Positions 18,189 through 27,839 of a stretch of DNA of 31,629 nucleotides are shown piece after piece. This stretch comes from a virus. The stretch is from positions 1 through 31,629 of the IMG/VR virus record IMGVR_UViG_3300021364_000103; one strand, given 5' to 3'. Both the position numbers and the translations under genes were made by a program. The notes under the pieces were generated by a model. The model did not search any database. It was not told the DNA's origin and worked only from the letters and a program-made list of their open reading frames with translations. Each line of letters begins with the position of its first letter. Positions within the stretch are counted from its first letter, which is position 1.

Positions 18189-18452
18189 ATGTTTGTCTTA
18201 GTTGACGAGAGCACTGGTGGCGTTTATGCCGTAAGAGATGACGACACCATTGAGCGTGTCGTCCAGATGTTTGTTGACAAAGACGACGCGGAGAGGTATT
18301 ATGAAATGCTTGTAGCAAGTGACTACAAACGAGAGTTGACAGTTACAGAAGTAGAAGAAGAGGCAGTAAAACAAAACTGTATAAATTACGGTTATAAGTT
18401 TGCTGTTATAAAACCAGATGATTTTGTGATTCCACCCCATGATTGTATTTGA
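18189..18452 (+). CDS. Small protein resembling DUF3110, between genes 47 and 46
   Basis: This 87-residue protein begins MFVLVDESTGGVYAVRDDD. It has a run VVQMFVDKDDAERYYEMLVA, then a Val/Glu segment and GYKFAVIKPDDFVIPP at the end. From memory this order (strand, VxxMFxDxDDAxRYxxxL helix, GYxxxVI end) resembles DUF3110, a small family found mainly in cyanobacteria. If correct, it marks a host-type gene inside a phage recombination operon. It overlaps gene 46 by 14 bases. Function is unknown. Confidence 0.75.
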   Translation: MFVLVDESTGGVYAVRDDDTIERVVQMFVDKDDAERYYEMLVASDYKRELTVTEVEEEAVKQNCINYGYKFAVIKPDDFVIPPHDCI

Positions 18453-20157
18453 GAAAATCCGTTGGAAGAATTTCCTCTCAACAGGTAACGCATTTACCGA
18501 AGTTGTAATCAATGATTCTCCCAACCACCTCATCGTAGGATCAAACGGTGCAGGTAAATCAACTCTTCTCGATGCATTGTGCTTTGGTTTATTCAATAAA
18601 CCTTTTCGTAAGATAAATAAACCACAACTGGTCAATAGTATTAACGAGCGCGAATGCGTCGTTGAGATTGAGTTTTCTATTGGCAGCGTTGGATATAAGA
18701 TTGTCCGTGGCATCAAGCCAGGTATCTTCGAGATTTATCGTAACGGGGCGCTGATCGATCAAGATGCAGCAAACAAAGACTACCAGAAATATCTGGAGCA
18801 ATCGATTCTCAAATTTAACTTCAAATCTTTTACTCAAGTTGTTATTCTGGGAAGTAGCACTTTTGTTCCTTTCATGCAGCTTCCTGCTGCTCATCGAAGA
18901 GAAGTTATCGAAGATCTCCTTGATATTCAAATCTTCTCAAGAATGAATGTCCTACTCAAGGATCGCATCAAGGACGTTAAAGAGAGCGTCAAGACGTGTG
19001 AGCATGAATATAAACTGCATGAGTCACAGGTAAACTTGCAAAGATCTTCATGCTTGAATCTGCAGAAGATGAATGAGGAATACATTCAGAAACTGCAATC
19101 ATCCTTTAACGCCAACGAAGAGCAGCAGACTACCAATCTCACACGAATTGGTGAAGCACAGCAAGAGATTGATACTCTTACCGAGCAAGTTTCTGCTTAT
19201 CAATTCACTGAGAAGAAGTATGATCAACTCCGTGACATGAGGGTTAAGATCCAACAGAATTTTGAGAAGGCACAGAAAGAGATTGCCTTCTATGCTGACA
19301 ATGATACCTGCCCCACATGCTCTCAAGATCTTCCTGAAGACATCAAGAAGTCTAAAACTGCATTTGCTGAGGGTAAGATGGTCAAACTAGCAGGTGGTAT
19401 CACTCAAATCAGCGGTGAGATCAAGAAAGTCACTGACAATCTCAAGGATTATCAGTTGAAGATGAAGCAGATCAACGAATTGCAGTATGAAATCACCACT
19501 TTGCAGAAGCAAAATGGTAAGATGCTCAAAGAAAACTCACAAATCATTGCTCAAGTTAATGAAGATCGTCCTGACATCACTAAAGAAGAGGAGAAACTGC
19601 AGAAGTTTGAGGGTGAGTTGAAGGAAACTGCTGAAAGATGTGCCAAAGTTAATATTGATGCTACAAATCTTTCGATGGTATCGAATCTTTTGAAAGATAC
19701 AGGCATCAAGTCCAAGATCATCAGTAGATTCATCCCTGTGATCAATGTGCAGATCAACAAATATCTTCAGAGCATGGATTTCTTTGTCAATTTCACCCTG
19801 GATGAAGGATTCAATGAGATTATTAAGTCCAGATTCCGTGATGAATTCTCTTATGCATCATTCTCTGAGGGTGAAAAGCAGAAGATTGACCTTGCACTGC
19901 TGTTTACCTGGCGAGACATCGCTAAGATGAAAAATTCAGCATCAACTAACCTCCTGATCCTTGACGAGGTGTTTGATTCTTCGCTAGACTCCACAGCAAC
20001 AGACGAGTTGATGAAAATCCTCAAAGGATTGGACAAGAAAACCAACCTCTTCGTCATTTCACACAAAGGAGAGGTCCTCCTAGACAAGTTTGAAACCACG
20101 ATTCAGTTTGAAAAGGTCAACGACTTCTCCAAGATGGTCGTGGACCAGTCGAAGTAG
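18439..20157 (+). CDS. 46: Recombination nuclease subunit gp46 (Rad50/SbcC-like ATPase)
   Basis: gp46 is the ABC-type ATPase partner of gp47. It has 572 residues, against 560 in T4. It shows Walker A GSNGAGKST (34-42), a long coiled coil (about 180-420) with a zinc-hook CPTC at 291-294, the ABC signature FSEGEKQ (475-481), Walker B LLILDE (505-510) and the His-switch region VISHK. All parts needed for activity are present. A GATAAATA octamer inside the gene at 18612 is taken as chance. A GC-rich hairpin follows the stop. Confidence 0.97.
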   Translation: MIVFEKIRWKNFLSTGNAFTEVVINDSPNHLIVGSNGAGKSTLLDALCFGLFNKPFRKINKPQLVNSINERECVVEIEFSIGSVGYKIVRGIKPGIFEIYRNGALIDQDAANKDYQKYLEQSILKFNFKSFTQVVILGSSTFVPFMQLPAAHRREVIEDLLDIQIFSRMNVLLKDRIKDVKESVKTCEHEYKLHESQVNLQRSSCLNLQKMNEEYIQKLQSSFNANEEQQTTNLTRIGEAQQEIDTLTEQVSAYQFTEKKYDQLRDMRVKIQQNFEKAQKEIAFYADNDTCPTCSQDLPEDIKKSKTAFAEGKMVKLAGGITQISGEIKKVTDNLKDYQLKMKQINELQYEITTLQKQNGKMLKENSQIIAQVNEDRPDITKEEEKLQKFEGELKETAERCAKVNIDATNLSMVSNLLKDTGIKSKIISRFIPVINVQINKYLQSMDFFVNFTLDEGFNEIIKSRFRDEFSYASFSEGEKQKIDLALLFTWRDIAKMKNSASTNLLILDEVFDSSLDSTATDELMKILKGLDKKTNLFVISHKGEVLLDKFETTIQFEKVNDFSKMVVDQSK

Positions 20158-20200: not shown

Positions 20201-22348
20201 ATGCATACAAGCAACGGTCACATGTTTCAAAACGAAGTCAAGGGACAACTCGCCAAACTGCTCGCTACTGAGAATCTGATCATCGAGCACAAGGTTTGTG
20301 AGACTGCTTCCTTCAACGTGGAAACTCGCACCCTTGTCCTTCCTATCTGGGAGGTCCGTGACCGCACCTATACCATGCTAGTCGGTCATGAAGTCGGTCA
20401 TGCTCTCTACACACCCAACGATGACTCTCTAGACAACCTCCCTTGCCCCAAATCCTACGTCAATGTGACCGAGGATGCTCGCATTGAGAAGTTGATGAAG
20501 CGTAAGTTTCCTGGTCTGACCAAGGACTTCTATGCTGGGTATCAAGACCTGCATTCTCGTGATTTCTTCTCTGTCAAGGATGAGGATCTCACCACCATGA
20601 AGTTGATCGACCGTATCAACCTTTACTACAAGGTAGGAGCACATCTGCTGCTGCCTTTTGACGCCTCTGAGATGCCTCTGTGTGACGCTGTAGGCGCTGC
20701 TGAAACCTTTGAGGAAGCCATCGCCGCCGCCCTTGCTATTTTTGAGTTTGAAAAGCAGAAGCGTGAGCAAGAGAAGCACCTTGCTCCCTTGTCTAACAAA
20801 GACACTGGTGATACTTCTATCGAGAAGTCCCAAGGCAAGTCCGATGAAAGTGCTCAGGACACTTCTGATGATTCTGATCAACCTGGCGAGGAAGAAAGTG
20901 ATCAGGGTGGTGAGGAATATCCTGATGGCGGATCTCCCATGGATGATCTGGAATCCGACACCGACGCTGCTCTGACTGAGAAACTGAAAAACATCACTAA
21001 CAAGTGGCAACAAAACGAGACTCGCTATCTCACCATCAATACTCCTGATCTTGACCACCACATTGTCAATACTCAGCGTATGATTGACATGGCAGAAGAA
21101 TACTGGGATGAGGTTGATGGCAGTGACATCCTTAAGACTGACTGGACCTTTGTTGACAATGAGTATCGTAAATTCAAGCGTGAGTGTGCTCGTGAGGTCA
21201 ACTATCTCGCCAAAGAGTTTGAGTTGAAGAAGTCTGCTGCTGCATATTCTCGCGAGTCAATCTCTCGCACTGGTGTGCTTGACACTAAGAAACTCCACAC
21301 TTACAAATTCAACGAAGATCTCTTCAAAAAAGTCACTGTCCGTCCTGATGGTAAGAATCATGGTCTGATCTTCCTGCTGGACTGGTCTGGATCGATGGCA
21401 GAGGTTATCCATGACACTTACAAGCAACTGCTGTCTCTTTGTCTCTTCTGTCGCAAGTCTGGCATTCCCTTTGATGTCTATGCTTTCGTCAATGATGGTT
21501 TGTTTCTCCCTGCTGAATATGACCCTGAAGAATTTATGAAGAAGTATGCGGTCCACAATGGGTTTGCTATTGATGCACACTTCTTCATGTTGAATCTGCT
21601 GAGTAGTGATCTTAACAACGCCACTTTCGATAAGATGGCAAAGTATATTTGGCGTAATTCTTTCCACTATGATGTGCATTATGGTCAGCAACGATCCAAT
21701 TGGGATGCACGGCAATCGTGTCCTAACTCTCTCCCTCCCTGCTTCCATCTGTCGGGCACTCCTCTGAATGAAGCAATCGTCTGTCTGCAGGGTTTGATTC
21801 CTAAATTCCAAGGGAAGCACAACGTTGAGAAAGTCCACGTCAACATTCTCACCGATGGTGAAGCACAGTATTCCCGTCAGTGGGTCGTCCGTAATTACAA
21901 TGAGAAAGAGGTGCCTTTGTATAGCGTCGTTAGGGATTCTGTTACGCTTCGTTGCAAGAAGACTGGTCGCACCTATGCCCCAGGTTATAACGGTATGACG
22001 GCACAAGTCCTCCGTTACATGAAGGGTCGTTTCCCTCAATGCAACTTCCTTGGATTCCGTATTGGACCCGCTCGTGATCTTACTTCTATGCTTCAATACA
22101 GTGGTTTGCCTATTGATGATCAGCAAAAGACTAAGAAGATCTTCAATCGTGACAAGTGCGTTGCCATGAAGATCAATGGGTTTCAGGAGTTGTATTTCAT
22201 CAACGCTAAGAATCTAAATACTGATTCTGAGTTTGCTGTTGATATTGATGCAACTAATGCACAGATCAAGAATGCATTCAAAAAGTCTCTCAAGAGTAAG
22301 TCCAACAACAAAAAGATCCTGTCGTCCTTCATCACTCAAATTGCATGA
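20201..22348 (+). CDS. Metallopeptidase-like and von Willebrand A domain protein
   Basis: This 715-residue two-domain protein has a zinc metallopeptidase motif HEVGH at 63-67, followed by EDARIE (91-96), which can supply the third zinc ligand as in gluzincins. A very acidic Ser/Asp/Glu linker covers about 200-260. The C-terminal half is a vWA domain with the metal site DWSGS (394-398) and a later LTDGEAQ strand. The layout resembles DUF2201-type and CobT-type proteins that work with MoxR-class AAA+ ATPases, and such an ATPase (CobS-like) is encoded two genes downstream. The partner and the protein substrate are unknown. ATG 20222 is an alternative start, seven codons shorter. Cyanophage relatives are often annotated only as peptidase. 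Confidence 0.88.
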   Translation: MHTSNGHMFQNEVKGQLAKLLATENLIIEHKVCETASFNVETRTLVLPIWEVRDRTYTMLVGHEVGHALYTPNDDSLDNLPCPKSYVNVTEDARIEKLMKRKFPGLTKDFYAGYQDLHSRDFFSVKDEDLTTMKLIDRINLYYKVGAHLLLPFDASEMPLCDAVGAAETFEEAIAAALAIFEFEKQKREQEKHLAPLSNKDTGDTSIEKSQGKSDESAQDTSDDSDQPGEEESDQGGEEYPDGGSPMDDLESDTDAALTEKLKNITNKWQQNETRYLTINTPDLDHHIVNTQRMIDMAEEYWDEVDGSDILKTDWTFVDNEYRKFKRECAREVNYLAKEFELKKSAAAYSRESISRTGVLDTKKLHTYKFNEDLFKKVTVRPDGKNHGLIFLLDWSGSMAEVIHDTYKQLLSLCLFCRKSGIPFDVYAFVNDGLFLPAEYDPEEFMKKYAVHNGFAIDAHFFMLNLLSSDLNNATFDKMAKYIWRNSFHYDVHYGQQRSNWDARQSCPNSLPPCFHLSGTPLNEAIVCLQGLIPKFQGKHNVEKVHVNILTDGEAQYSRQWVVRNYNEKEVPLYSVVRDSVTLRCKKTGRTYAPGYNGMTAQVLRYMKGRFPQCNFLGFRIGPARDLTSMLQYSGLPIDDQQKTKKIFNRDKCVAMKINGFQELYFINAKNLNTDSEFAVDIDATNAQIKNAFKKSLKSKSNNKKILSSFITQIA

Positions 22349-22881
22349 ATATCTTTGCTACGCATGATGATCCTGTGCTGTCGGCAACTGAGTTGCCTGA
22401 CAAGCACATTGTAAAAATGCCACTGGAGTGTTGTCAGATGCTCGCAGTGGTTTATTCTCCTTGGTATAAGGACATTGGTCCTATTCTAAAGACAGATGGT
22501 AGTGCATATGCCACAAAGAAAGGTGCCTTTCGCAATCATCCATGCACCAAATGGGTAGCAGAATCTGACCACAACATCGCGTGGTTATTGCAGCATGGTA
22601 TTGCACTTTGTGACGAATATGAGTATAGATATAACAAACGTCATTCTTGTAAAAAGAGTTTAGTCTTTGCTGGTCTTCTGTATCAGCATGGTTGCCCTGA
22701 AAAACATACTCCCTTCGCTCGTGCGATGCCTGATGAGTGGAAATATGATGATTCTATCTCTACTCATGAGGCATACCAGCGTTACATCGCAAGCAAACCC
22801 TGGGTGTCAACCAACTACCTGAGGGTGCCAGATCGCAAACCGTCCTGGGTTGACCGCTATGCTCCTGTGGAGGCAGTATAA
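22345..22881 (+). CDS. Conserved phage protein with DKH motif, unknown function
   Basis: This 178-residue protein begins MNIFATHDDPVLSATELPDKHIVKMPLECCQML. The key features are the DKHIVKM motif near residue 20, a NHPCTKWV block around 65, and an EYEYRYNKRHSC block around 95. These Cys, His and Asp residues look like an active or metal-binding site. I recall related proteins in many phages and some bacteria with the same DKHxVKM / HPCxxW pattern, but no established function. It overlaps the metallopeptidase-vWA gene (ATGA) and lies before the CobS-like gene, so it may belong to that module. Confidence 0.85.
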   Translation: MNIFATHDDPVLSATELPDKHIVKMPLECCQMLAVVYSPWYKDIGPILKTDGSAYATKKGAFRNHPCTKWVAESDHNIAWLLQHGIALCDEYEYRYNKRHSCKKSLVFAGLLYQHGCPEKHTPFARAMPDEWKYDDSISTHEAYQRYIASKPWVSTNYLRVPDRKPSWVDRYAPVEAV

Positions 22882-22882
22882 T
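22877..22882 (+). promoter_or_regulatory. Possible -10 element TATAAT before the CobS-like gene
   Basis: TATAAT overlaps the stop of the preceding gene, 25 bases before ATG 22908. A TTGACC (22850-22855) lies upstream, but the 21-bp spacer is too long for a normal sigma-70 promoter. Only the -10 motif is convincing. Confidence 0.3.
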
Positions 22883-22907
22883 TACAAGGTAATCGAGAAA
22901 CACACCA

Positions 22908-24020
22908 ATGCCTGCCAAGTCTGACCTGACCACCGAGACTCTGGTCTCCTATCTCACCAATACCTACGGTGAGCAAGTCAAGACCGAGCAACTGCTTGCC
23001 GCTGCTGACCACTTCAACGTTTCATATCCCACTATCACTAAGCGTCTTGATACCTTCAAGGCAGGTCGTGGCAAGTGGAATCTGACTATCACTGAGATGC
23101 GTGAGCAACTGGAGCACACCATTGATATTCCAAGTATTGACTGCACTACCCAACAGCACCGCGAGTCCTTGATCCCATCTAAAGACAAAAACTTTGTCCC
23201 CTTTGGTAACTTCACTGATTTGAAGAAAGTTATCAACAGTGGTATCTACTACCCCATCTTCATCACTGGTCTCTCTGGTAACGGCAAGACCCTTGGTGTT
23301 GAGCAGGCATGTGCTCAGACTGATCGCGAGTTGATTCGTGTCAACATTACTATCGAAACTGATGAAGACGATCTTATTGGCGGTTTCCGTCTGGTTGACG
23401 GTAATACTGTGTGGCACAATGGTCCTGTCATTGAGGCTCTTGAGCGAGGTGCTGTCCTCCTTCTGGATGAGATCGATCTGGCGTCCAATAAAATCCTCTG
23501 TCTCCAGTCTATTCTTGAGGGTAAGGGTGTCTTCCTGAAGAAGATCGGTCGCTATGTCAAACCCGCTGAGGGTTTCACTGTCATTGCTACTGCCAACACC
23601 AAGGGTAAGGGCAGCGAAGACGGTCGCTTCATCGGCACCAACGTGCTCAACGAAGCATTCCTTGAGCGTTTCCCGATTACCTTCGAGCAGGAGTATCCCA
23701 CTCAAAAGATTGAGGCAAAGATGCTCAATAACTACTGCTCTGAGTTGGATTGCTGCGATGACAAGTTTATTTCTAATCTTGTCGCCTGGGCAGACATCAT
23801 CCGCAAGACCTTTGCAGACGGTGGTGTTGACGAGGTGATCTCAACTCGTCGCCTGGTGCATGTCATCCGTGCTTACAGCATCTTCTCTGATCGGGTCAAG
23901 GCAATCAAGGTCTGCCTCAATCGTTTCGATGACGAAACCAAGCAATCTTTCTTGGAATTGTATGATAAGATTGATGCTGAGGTTGACATTGATACTATTG
24001 ACACCATCCTCGCTTCCTGA
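22908..24020 (+). CDS. cobS: CobS-like MoxR-family AAA+ ATPase
   Basis: This 370-residue ATPase has a helical N-terminal region (1-90) of unknown role. The AAA+ core follows: Walker A GLSGNGKT (121-128), a DEDDLIGGF segment characteristic of CobS/MoxR proteins, Walker B LLLDEID (184-190), sensor region VIATANTKGKG and arginine-finger region LNEAFLERF. In bacteria CobS works with CobT and CobN to insert cobalt in B12 synthesis, and cobS is a common cyanophage gene. Here it is close to a vWA protein that looks like a CobT/DUF2201-type partner. The pair may act as a remodelling machine that is not necessarily for cobalamin; no CobN is in the window. Confidence 0.93.
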   Translation: MPAKSDLTTETLVSYLTNTYGEQVKTEQLLAAADHFNVSYPTITKRLDTFKAGRGKWNLTITEMREQLEHTIDIPSIDCTTQQHRESLIPSKDKNFVPFGNFTDLKKVINSGIYYPIFITGLSGNGKTLGVEQACAQTDRELIRVNITIETDEDDLIGGFRLVDGNTVWHNGPVIEALERGAVLLLDEIDLASNKILCLQSILEGKGVFLKKIGRYVKPAEGFTVIATANTKGKGSEDGRFIGTNVLNEAFLERFPITFEQEYPTQKIEAKMLNNYCSELDCCDDKFISNLVAWADIIRKTFADGGVDEVISTRRLVHVIRAYSIFSDRVKAIKVCLNRFDDETKQSFLELYDKIDAEVDIDTIDTILAS

Positions 24021-25578: not shown

Positions 25579-26518
25579 TAAACTCTTCCTTTGGGTTGAA
25601 AAGTATCGTCCGAAAACCATCGATGACTGCATCCTTCCCGACTCCACTAAGAAAATCTTTAGGGGATTTCTGGAGCAATCTGAAATTCCAAATCTTCTTC
25701 TTGCGGGCTCGGCTGGTGTTGGCAAGACTACGATCGCGAAGGCGCTTTGCCACGAGTTGGGCACCGATTGTCTGGTTATTAACGGATCTGATGAAGGTCG
25801 ATTTTTGGATACGGTCAGAAATCAAGCAAAGGTATTCGCATCTACGGTATCGCTTACGTCGGATGCGAAGCACAAAGTAATTATCATTGATGAGGCAGAC
25901 AACACCACACCTGATGTGCAGTTGTTGCTCCGTGCTTGCATGGAAGAGTTTCAAAAGAATTGCCGCTTCATCTTCACCTGCAACTACAAGAATAAAATCA
26001 TCTCTCCACTGCACTCTCGGTGCTCTGTAATCGATTTCGGCGCGAAGGGTAAGGAGAAGCAGCAGATCGCTGCAGCATTCTTCGGTCGTGTCAACCAGAT
26101 CCTTGAGGATGAGGGTGTTGAGTTTGATAAGAAGGTAGTTGCTGAGGTTGTCCAGAAGTATTTCCCTGACTTCCGTCGCACTCTCAATGAGTTGCAGCGT
26201 TACTCTTCTTCGGGTGCTATTGACACTGGCATCCTTGGTGCTTCTAATGATATTCAGATCTCAAACCTCGTTGGTTACCTGAAGAATCGTGAGTTTACCA
26301 ACATGAAGAAGTGGGTTGCTCAGAATATGGACAACGAGCCACAAGCAATCATGAGGAAAGTCTATGACAACCTATATAACTATTTCCAACCCAATGCCAT
26401 TCCTGAAGCAGTCCTTATTATCAGTGAATACCAGTATAAGTCTGGTTTCGTTGTTGACCAAGAGATCAACATGGTGGCATTTATGACTGAATTGATGATG
26501 CGTTGTGAATATAAATGA
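25571..26518 (+). CDS. 44: Clamp loader large subunit (gp44)
   Basis: gp44 is the AAA+ ATPase that opens and loads gp45 at primer ends, with gp62. It has 315 residues (T4 319). It starts LWVEKYRPKTIDDCILP, the typical first motif. Walker A GSAGVGKT (46-53), Walker B box DEAD (107-110) and the arginine-finger SRC (149-151) are complete. Normally gene 62 follows immediately; here five stop-start-linked or closely spaced genes run on, and gene 62 lies 2.7 kb downstream. The stop overlaps the next start (ATGA). Confidence 0.97.
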   Translation: MSDKLFLWVEKYRPKTIDDCILPDSTKKIFRGFLEQSEIPNLLLAGSAGVGKTTIAKALCHELGTDCLVINGSDEGRFLDTVRNQAKVFASTVSLTSDAKHKVIIIDEADNTTPDVQLLLRACMEEFQKNCRFIFTCNYKNKIISPLHSRCSVIDFGAKGKEKQQIAAAFFGRVNQILEDEGVEFDKKVVAEVVQKYFPDFRRTLNELQRYSSSGAIDTGILGASNDIQISNLVGYLKNREFTNMKKWVAQNMDNEPQAIMRKVYDNLYNYFQPNAIPEAVLIISEYQYKSGFVVDQEINMVAFMTELMMRCEYK

Positions 26519-27171
26519 AATACAGCACAGATTTTCTATTTCCCGTTAGATTCTTTACCTTTAAGGCATCCGAAGAGTTGACAGCAGACACTCTGGAGAA
26601 GTTGCAACACATTGAATACCGTAGATATAACGATCCCTATGGTGTAGGCACAAGTGATCAATTGCATTCACGCCCCGAGTTTCGTGAATTGCATGAATGG
26701 TTTCAGAAATGTGTGGATCAACTTCATAGGGATAATGGATGGCACTGTGATCGCCTTGTAGTCAATAAATCATGGGCAAACCGTAGCAATGCTGGAAGTG
26801 GACATCATCACTCTCCACACCGCCACCCTATGTCATTCCTCAGTGGCATCTTCTACGTCACAAAGGGTCCTCCTACGGTCTTCCTGGACCCCCTGAGAGA
26901 CCGTGAGTGGGGTCAATTCCATCTGGATGGTGGTCCTGCATCTGAGACTCGTTGTTTCTGCCACCCTGGTCCTGGAGGACTGCTCTTATTCCCCAGTTAC
27001 ATGGTGCATGGGAGTGTTGAGAATGATAGTGATATAGATAGATTTACTATTGCCCTGAATACTTTCCCCTCTGGTGAAATTAACCTTGGTGCTTTCGATC
27101 GCCCCATGGCAGAGGTGTCTGTTAATGGATGGGCAGAGTTAGGACCATTATCTCTTAGTGATGACACATGA
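26515..27171 (+). CDS. 2OG-Fe(II) oxygenase-like protein (phage PF13759-type), first of two
   Basis: This is a 218-residue predicted dioxygenase. The core has a His-rich block, HHHSPHRHPMSFLSGIFYV (His102 and His104 candidate ligands), then FLDP with Asp125, and FPSYMVHGSVEN with His165. Arg176 in DRFTIALNTFP is the 2-oxoglutarate anchor. The pattern HRHPMS-x-LS-x-(I/V)(F/Y)Y and FPSxxxH is typical of a phage-rich 2OG oxygenase family. It is a paralogue of the next gene, with ATGA overlaps on both sides. Substrate unknown. Confidence 0.85.
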   Translation: MKYSTDFLFPVRFFTFKASEELTADTLEKLQHIEYRRYNDPYGVGTSDQLHSRPEFRELHEWFQKCVDQLHRDNGWHCDRLVVNKSWANRSNAGSGHHHSPHRHPMSFLSGIFYVTKGPPTVFLDPLRDREWGQFHLDGGPASETRCFCHPGPGGLLLFPSYMVHGSVENDSDIDRFTIALNTFPSGEINLGAFDRPMAEVSVNGWAELGPLSLSDDT

Positions 27172-27839
27172 CATTTGGGAAAGAATTGAATCTGTTTCCT
27201 GTTAGATTGCGGGAGTATCATAATCCAGATGCACATAATCATGAAAAGATTATTGAGCACTTTAAGACTCTCCCCTCTCAACAATCTAATCTCCCTGAAG
27301 GAGTAATTACAGGAGAACCCACATTACACTTCACGGATCATCCTGAGACTCAATTACTCATGGAATTCTTTGAGGATTGTCTTGGTGAATGGAGAGAAGT
27401 AAATCAACTCTACTGTGACAATCTAGATATTACTCTTGCTTGGTTTAATTTCGCCCCTGCTCATAGTGGGTTTGGGCATCCTCTACACAGGCACCCTATG
27501 TCTTACCTGAGTGCTGTCTACTATTTGACTGATGGAGCCCCAACTTACTTTGAAGATCCTTGCACCCCTAGGACTTCTGATACTCTAGATATCTTTACTC
27601 ATAAAGATATGACAACTGACTGGGGTATCAATGAAAAGATTGATGCAGAGCCAGGTAAATTAGTTATCTTCCCATCATGGTTGAAACATTATTCTGGAAG
27701 GCAGACCTATGACTATGATCGATGGTCAGTGTCTTTCAATGCATTTCCTACTGGTGCTACCAACGTAGGACCTTGGGACTGTGCTCAGTTGAATGTGTCC
27801 TTGCAACATCCCAAGGTCCGTGGTAATATGGATGGGTAG
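27168..27839 (+). CDS. 2OG-Fe(II) oxygenase-like protein (phage PF13759-type), second of two
   Basis: This is a 223-residue paralogue of the preceding protein. Both share an N-terminal LFPVR, the block LHRHPMSYLSAVYYL (His107 and His109), an Asp in FEDP (130), FPSWLKHYSG (His174) and Arg185 in DRWSVSFNAFPTG. The identity between the two is moderate and spread over the whole length, which points to an old tandem duplication. In an infected cell they could modify different substrates. The gene ends 11 bases before the putative nuclease gene. Confidence 0.85.
   Translation: MTFGKELNLFPVRLREYHNPDAHNHEKIIEHFKTLPSQQSNLPEGVITGEPTLHFTDHPETQLLMEFFEDCLGEWREVNQLYCDNLDITLAWFNFAPAHSGFGHPLHRHPMSYLSAVYYLTDGAPTYFEDPCTPRTSDTLDIFTHKDMTTDWGINEKIDAEPGKLVIFPSWLKHYSGRQTYDYDRWSVSFNAFPTGATNVGPWDCAQLNVSLQHPKVRGNMDG

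Follow-up and report, generated by a model that had tools for sequence, protein, structure and literature searches.

The three genes considered here lie on the + strand at positions 20,201 to 24,020 of the viral record IMGVR_UViG_3300021364_000103, positions 1 to 31,629 of which were analysed and are termed the window. Gene order in the window is T4-like and of the cyanophage type: terminase, tail sheath, tube, portal, head protease and major head protein genes are followed by a recombination and replication block of gp47, gp46, the three focal genes, a DUF3310 protein and the gp45 clamp. Based on a profile match and phage homologues, gene 1 (20201..22348) encodes a 715-residue protein of phrog_459 ('peptidase'), a remote CobT relative in which a predicted zincin precedes a von Willebrand factor A (vWA) domain. 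Gene 2 (22345..22881) encodes a 178-residue DenV-family (PF03013) protein of phrog_624, a neighbour that we judge to lie outside the pair formed by the other two. Gene 3 (22908..24020), annotated 'CobS' and falling in phrog_249 ('porphyrin biosynthesis'), encodes a 370-residue AAA+ ATPase of the MoxR/CbbQ/NorQ class, as assigned from PF07728 and structural matches. The PHROG matches of genes 1 (E=2e-232) and 3 (E=2e-142), together with hundreds of phage homologues, indicate that these open reading frames (ORFs) are not due to chance. The three ORFs and the HEVGH, EDARIE and DWSGS motifs are all present as described in an original prediction made from the DNA letters, which had joined the three genes into one module. 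Among annotated genomes, Cyanophage P-TIM40 comes closest for genes 2 and 3, and its gene order across this part of the window is identical.

Pairing of genes 1 and 3

Genes 1 and 3 are a near-obligate pair and core cyanophage genes. Gene 1 matches 463 GenBank phage records; both genes have 365 matches in Synechococcus, 61 in Cyanophage and 24 in Prochlorococcus records, and among 'Marine' phages gene 1 has 7 and gene 3 has 6. Since equal GenBank counts could come from different records, linkage was tested on IMG/VR contigs, using the best 80 matches per scan; these are weighted to close relatives, and some contigs occur in both sets. Among the 80 contigs reached via gene 1, 65 carry a full gene 3, one (L065) breaks off within gene 3 and 14 are too short to reach it, which places gene 3 on 66/66 of the contigs that are long enough. 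Of 70 contigs newly reached via gene 3, 64 carry gene 1 and six break off too early to show it; that is, the zincin-vWA gene is present on 64/64 contigs with enough upstream sequence. The 'CobT + CobS' genes of SSU5-type and ICP2-type phages (of Klebsiella, Salmonella, E. coli, Rhizobium and V. cholerae), whose products have remote sequence similarity to the window proteins, likewise comprise a zincin-vWA gene and then a MoxR-class ATPase gene, near DNA polymerase genes. Among loci that show the ATPase gene, it is found within 2 kb of the zincin-vWA gene in 77/77 of the SSU5 type and 70/71 of the divergent T4-like ones (seven of the latter with reversed order).

In cyanophages, as in Pelagibacter phage HTVC008M, the pair is flanked by gp46 and gp45; in S-CREM2 and Stenotrophomonas phage DLP6 it adjoins primase genes. 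It survives REARRANGEMENT, being relocated in S-CREM2 and DLP6 and inverted in order in L168, and its retention through moves and inversions is a stronger sign of joint function than fixed synteny. The part of the proposed module that united the ATPase with the peptidase-vWA protein is therefore borne out by linkage on the IMG/VR contigs, whereas the middle gene falls away from it. Separate occurrence of the genes, named beforehand as evidence against a module, was not seen for the ATPase and vWA pair on any testable contig except one divergent contig.

This sole exception (L333) has a zincin-vWA gene with about 4-5 kb on each side and no recognisable CobS-like ATPase. Relatives of 'CobS' in Staphylococcus phage G1 and Acinetobacter phage AM24 were set aside, as the next gene has neither HExxH nor DxSxS. 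In Pseudoalteromonas phage XG4 (PP712099.1, 6902-10439), vWA, zincin and ATPase are separate ORFs in that swapped order; its ATPase ORF is broken in two and the record is flagged unverified, so it was given no weight. A split cobT is also known from HHTV-2 (Liu et al. 2021, PMC8651126).

The middle gene had been regarded as a conserved unknown that might be the substrate or third subunit. It belongs instead to the T4 endonuclease V family, scoring 58.6 bits against PF03013 (cut-off 23), compared with 53.3 bits for T4 DenV as a control on the same model; a search of solved structures with gene 2 returned no match. Gene 2 overlaps gene 1 by ATGA, as in the P-TIM40 operon, but it stands between genes 1 and 3 in 13/129 loci and is absent or located elsewhere in the others. 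The gap of the pair is <=250 bases in 63/129 loci, and in 53 it is longer but without a recognised gene 2. Gene 2 also occurs in phage records of Vibrio (74), Acinetobacter (66) and Pseudomonas (36), groups in which a gene 1 search of GenBank phages found no match. Because of this distribution the three-gene module was rejected; gene 2 is a bystander, outside the machine proposed below. The catalytic residue of T4 endonuclease V is Thr at position 2, and residue 2 of gene 2 is Asn in the window, L001 and L164, which makes repair activity of gene 2 doubtful.

Conserved sites in the two proteins

The N-terminus of gene 1 is a predicted zincin metallopeptidase, with an HExxH motif and a downstream acidic residue as its putative third ligand. 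In HEVGH (residues 63-67, 20387..20401), the zinc-binding motif, H, E and H are invariant in all rows reaching the site. EDARIE (residues 91-96, 20471..20488), which probably supplies the third zinc ligand and its helix, keeps E91, D92 and R94 in 139/139 homologues. An acidic, disordered linker from zincin to vWA follows (residues 196-250, 20786..20950), with a net negative fraction of 0.27, a conservation of 0.25 and a predicted local distance difference test score (pLDDT) <50 at 198-245. Residues 331-388 (21191..21364), before the first vWA strand, have the highest mean conservation in the protein (0.82) and are a candidate for a pore-inserting 'finger' as in NorD; this segment shares its position and a G-x-L-D-x-x-x-L pattern with the segment preceding DNSGSM in CobT. 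The vWA domain is of the metal ion-dependent adhesion site (MIDAS) type (DxSxS...T...D), and its motif is complete: D394, S396 and S398 of DWSGS (residues 394-398, 21380..21394) are found in 139/139, T520 (21758-21760) in 138 and D552 (21854-21856) in 139/139. The conserved C-terminal tail (residues 691-715, 22271..22345) ends at exactly the same residue in 133/139 homologues.

Across the 139 aligned homologues of gene 1, HExxH, EDxR and MIDAS are invariant except for three gapped rows and a single T-to-S change. Loss of zinc or MIDAS residues, which would have spoken against the module, was not encountered among cyanophage homologues. Some homologue scans had used HEVGH-containing patterns, and an unbiased set was therefore formed by the 47 gene 1 sequences reached via gene 3, in which HExxH is complete in 44/44 and the remaining sites (EDxR, MIDAS) in 47/47. 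One viral scan pattern contained HE[VI]GHA, and its 78/78 HExxH count was excluded from the evidence. In two phages of the ZY21/nickie type (L159, L266), DSEISK replaces HExxH, with MIDAS and the adjoining ATPase retained; these are natural losses of the protease site.

An AlphaFold model of gene 1 has a mean pLDDT of 79.5 and a predicted template modelling score of 0.69, and its helices 54-70 and 84-102 bear the HEVGH and EDARIE motifs. In Foldseek searches of solved structures, vWA folds were found, the vWA half matching MDN1-MIDAS and NorD weakly; against viral models, the matches were to phage and haloarchaeal vWA proteins and, weakly, to ATV ORF892 (E=0.006). A sequence search of solved structures with gene 1 gave a low-complexity match as its sole result.

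Gene 3 scores 63.1 bits against PF07728 (AAA_5; cut-off 22) and has the Walker A, Walker B, sensor 1 Asn and conserved Arg residues of this family in 140 homologues. Walker A (GLSGNGKT, residues 121-128, 23268..23291) is invariant except that position 2 is L or M and that S replaces T once, and D and E of Walker B (LLLDE, residues 184-188, 23457..23471) are invariant in all 140. The top structural matches of the gene 3 model are AfCbbQ2 (6l1q) and NorQ-NorD complexes (9qh*). In the model's secondary structure, residues 9-58 (22932..23081) form a small N-terminal alpha/beta domain that looks like a helix-turn-helix (HTH), with a weak DUF2089-HTH match (E=0.028). SSU5-type ATPases have a Cys/His-rich N-terminus in its place, and N-terminal adaptors of the ATPase appear to differ between phage groups.

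Proposed mechanism and competing explanations

The domain assignments, invariant active-site residues and near-obligate pairing, all read from sequence, suggest that genes 1 and 3 encode one two-component machine. Gene 3 would form a MoxR-class AAA+ hexamer with gene 1 as vWA co-chaperone; the latter would insert the segment that precedes the first vWA strand into the ring and dock onto the ring by its fixed C-terminus. The conservation of the finger and the fixed C-terminus fit the two contacts of NorD with NorQ, on which the NorD C-terminus docks (PMC13036017). MIDAS would bind an acidic residue of the target protein and, on the model put forward for NorQD, ATP turnover would twist or pull this protein against the N-terminal domain on its tether. 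As the zinc-protease signature is complete on this domain, it would be an intact HExxH protease on a flexible acidic tether, making the remodeller able to cut, and remodelling is probably coupled to target cleavage. The zinc site is kept in cyanophages and in 74/78 SSU5-type proteins and is absent in 15/15 bacterial CobTs, as the original prediction had anticipated for cellular CobT, which argues for a protease rather than a dead domain. The machine would be active in the replication (middle) phase, with a protein of replication, of recombination or of the host as its target, and its role would lie outside cobalamin synthesis.

The timing is suggested by gene position and promoter motifs. In the window, gp18, gp20, gp22 and gp3 have a late-type motif, NATAAATA, 24-47 bases ahead of them, and this motif precedes several structural genes of P-TIM40 as well; it was found upstream of 2/127 gene 1 homologues and 5/150 gene 3 homologues. 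In unrelated phages the pair adjoins DNA pol III alpha or helicase/Pol I, and expression timing is conserved among T4-like cyanophages. The company of replication genes and the missing late motif favour a middle-phase role, and the pair most likely acts in the replication (middle) phase.

Several points weigh against this explanation. The Foldseek alignments to solved structures covered the vWA half only and left the zincin half matchless, so the zincin fold is predicted from motifs and modelled helices. The finger was assigned by position and a short pattern, and direct profile comparison of the vWA halves of cyanophage gene 1 and CobT is weak (E=0.006). A few relatives have lost HExxH (the nickie/ZY21 type; 4/78 of the SSU5 type), and in these the zincin may serve a structural purpose or be dispensable. 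Late read-through expression is compatible with a missing late promoter, and no biochemistry for either protein was found in the literature. On balance, we give a AAA+ remodeller with a protease co-chaperone, working in the replication phase and not in cobalamin synthesis, an even chance of being right. More tentatively, cyanophage 'cobS' may be the motor of an ATP-driven metalloprotease-chaperone acting during phage DNA replication.

The original prediction had known 'cobS alone' from cyanophages, but the pair has been described twice already, with conflicting functions: as a MoxR-vWA-metallopeptidase system (Iyer et al. 2021, PMC7824862) and as cobST (Liu et al. 2021, PMC8651126). The present analysis adds that gene 2 is a bystander, that the zinc site is invariant here and absent from cellular CobT, that the two genes remain linked when relocated or inverted, and that they have no late promoter. 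The two published readings differ in their predictions on host CobN, timing and the zinc site. The question matters because nearly all marine cyanomyoviruses carry cobS, which metagenome studies routinely count as vitamin B12 metabolism (e.g. PMC9983427); if the gene serves a protein-remodelling protease, this label is wrong in many studies.

A possible though unlikely alternative is a machine for virion assembly or maturation, in which a MoxR-vWA chaperone would be combined with proteolytic processing of structural proteins. Such a role was proposed for the MoxR-vWA pair of group 2.2 jumbo phages (Iyer et al. 2021, PMC7824862), which, compared by description only, likewise has a MoxR ATPase gene and an N-terminal metallopeptidase-vWA protein (ASV44729.1 / ASV44728.2). 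For the virus-encoded MoxR ATPase and vWA partner of ATV (p618/p892), whose interaction has been shown, a role in tail development is backed by experiment (PMC4124505), and the weak match of the gene 1 model to ATV ORF892 points the same way. The ATV ATPase is a virion component and the system is described as having no peptidase domain (PMC7824862). Against an assembly role, the window pair is located in the replication block, with late-type motifs before the structural genes and not before the pair. The proximity of the pair to replication genes in unrelated phages also counts against assembly.

It is rather unlikely that the pair is a metal-cofactor insertase or enzyme activase of the NorQD/CbbQO type, with the zincin as a structural clamp instead of a protease. 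CbbQ and NorQ-NorD are the closest structural relatives of the ATPase, and NorQ-NorD and CbbQ-CbbO have the ring fold, MIDAS, finger-like segment and conserved C-terminus in common with the window pair; NorQD drives metal insertion (PMC13036017). Some relatives without HExxH keep MIDAS and the pairing, and cellular CobT, a homologue without zinc ligands, also counts for a structural clamp. On the other side, H63, E64, H67 and E91 are invariant among sequences of about 40% identity, an invariance difficult to account for if the site neither catalysed nor bound zinc. No protease function is described for NorD (PMC13036017), and the targets of NorQ-NorD and CbbQ-CbbO are cNOR and rubisco. Fusion of an HExxH domain to vWA is also seen in bacterial DUF2201 (PF13203), with a MoxR-like gene adjoining in 6/8 loci (L189-L196), but the zincin subtype differs (HEALH...D.ACD.AIN), the protein is shorter and there is no Pfam match to the window protein.

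In the chelatase reading, which we consider quite unlikely, viral CobS and CobT would work with host CobN to raise cobalamin, e.g. for ribonucleotide reductase. Liu et al. (2021, PMC8651126) explicitly placed the cyanophage pair in the viral cobST cluster, called the peptidase label mistaken and proposed hijacking of host CobN. Bacterial CobS/CobT is likewise a AAA+ plus vWA pair, and CobS is among the closest named solved relatives of the ATPase. However, the window proteins stay below the curated cut-offs, gene 3 with 76.2 vs 558.55 bits on the CobS equivalog TIGR01650 and gene 1 with 9.7 vs 26.1 bits on CobT PF06213. In bacterial CobT, RGxxDAxAL replaces the HExxH region and zinc ligands are absent in 15/15 sequences, while the second motif persists in the degenerate form EQARxE where the window has EDARIE; a zinc site that is complete and invariant here and absent in cellular CobTs counts against a chelatase.

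CobT and the phage zincin-vWA proteins nevertheless appear to be related, as judged from profile comparisons. Whole gene 1 matches bacterial CobT at E=8.5e-5 over the EDARIE helix only, and the N half alone at E=0.02. This weak direct comparison is bridged by SSU5-type proteins, which pass the Pfam CobT cut-offs and match bacterial CobT in both halves (vWA at 99.94% probability), and whose N-domain matches the cyanophage N-domain (E=3e-6). Because the zinc site is present in cyanophages and most SSU5-type phages and the related CobT has no HExxH, the peptidase label is no simple error, and on this evidence the readings of Liu and Iyer are each partly right on ancestry.

The distribution of the third chelatase subunit bears on the same reading. 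CobN/ChlH is found in 29/31 Prochlorococcus genomes, making a chelatase possible for cyanophages taken alone, but a search of phage records matched no cyanophage record and two phage records only. E. coli K-12 is a host of SSU5-type phages that carry the pair, and no CobN match was found in E. coli in the control panel. Class I nrdAB, which needs no B12, is used by Cyanophage P-HM2, and this counts against cobalamin supply for ribonucleotide reductase.

One such E. coli K-12 phage-plasmid, PhiR41_1 (PV340561.1, 4992-8431), has a zincin-CobT gene (HEVAH) and a CobS-like gene beside DNA polymerase III alpha. As a separate observation, a class sample of 58 alphaproteobacterial genomes, many of which may be incomplete, contains CobT (PF06213) in 41 and CobN/BchH (PF02514) in 22, with 20/41 CobT genomes having no CobN match; the Caulobacter vibrioides control has a CobT match and no CobN match. 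Cellular CobST may often work without its chelatase subunit.

We regard as improbable a host-takeover or counter-defence protease that the vWA adaptor would direct to a host protein. In its favour, takeover commonly relies on proteases directed by adaptors, and the pair is core to cyanophages and present in unrelated phages. Yet PADLOC defence models had no match in the window, and conservation across SAR11 and cyanobacterial hosts argues for a phage-encoded or universal target. Finally, a three-part module with gene 2 as substrate or third subunit has next to no chance of being correct, since the ATGA overlap and common operon in the window and P-TIM40 are outweighed by the family and distribution of gene 2.

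Neighbouring genes

Upstream of gene 1 lies gp46 (SbcC-like, phrog_77; 18439..20157), a marker of the replication and recombination block. Downstream of gene 3 are the DUF3310 protein gene (PF11753; 24045..24335) and the gp45 sliding clamp gene (phrog_223, PF09116; 24338..25051), both also on the + strand. The window further encodes a DNA methyltransferase and two 2-oxoglutarate (2OG)-Fe(II) oxygenases, the latter as a tandem gene pair at 26515-27839 flanked by gp44 and the methyltransferase. The second of these tandem oxygenases has an additional weak match to phrog_274 DNA endonuclease V.

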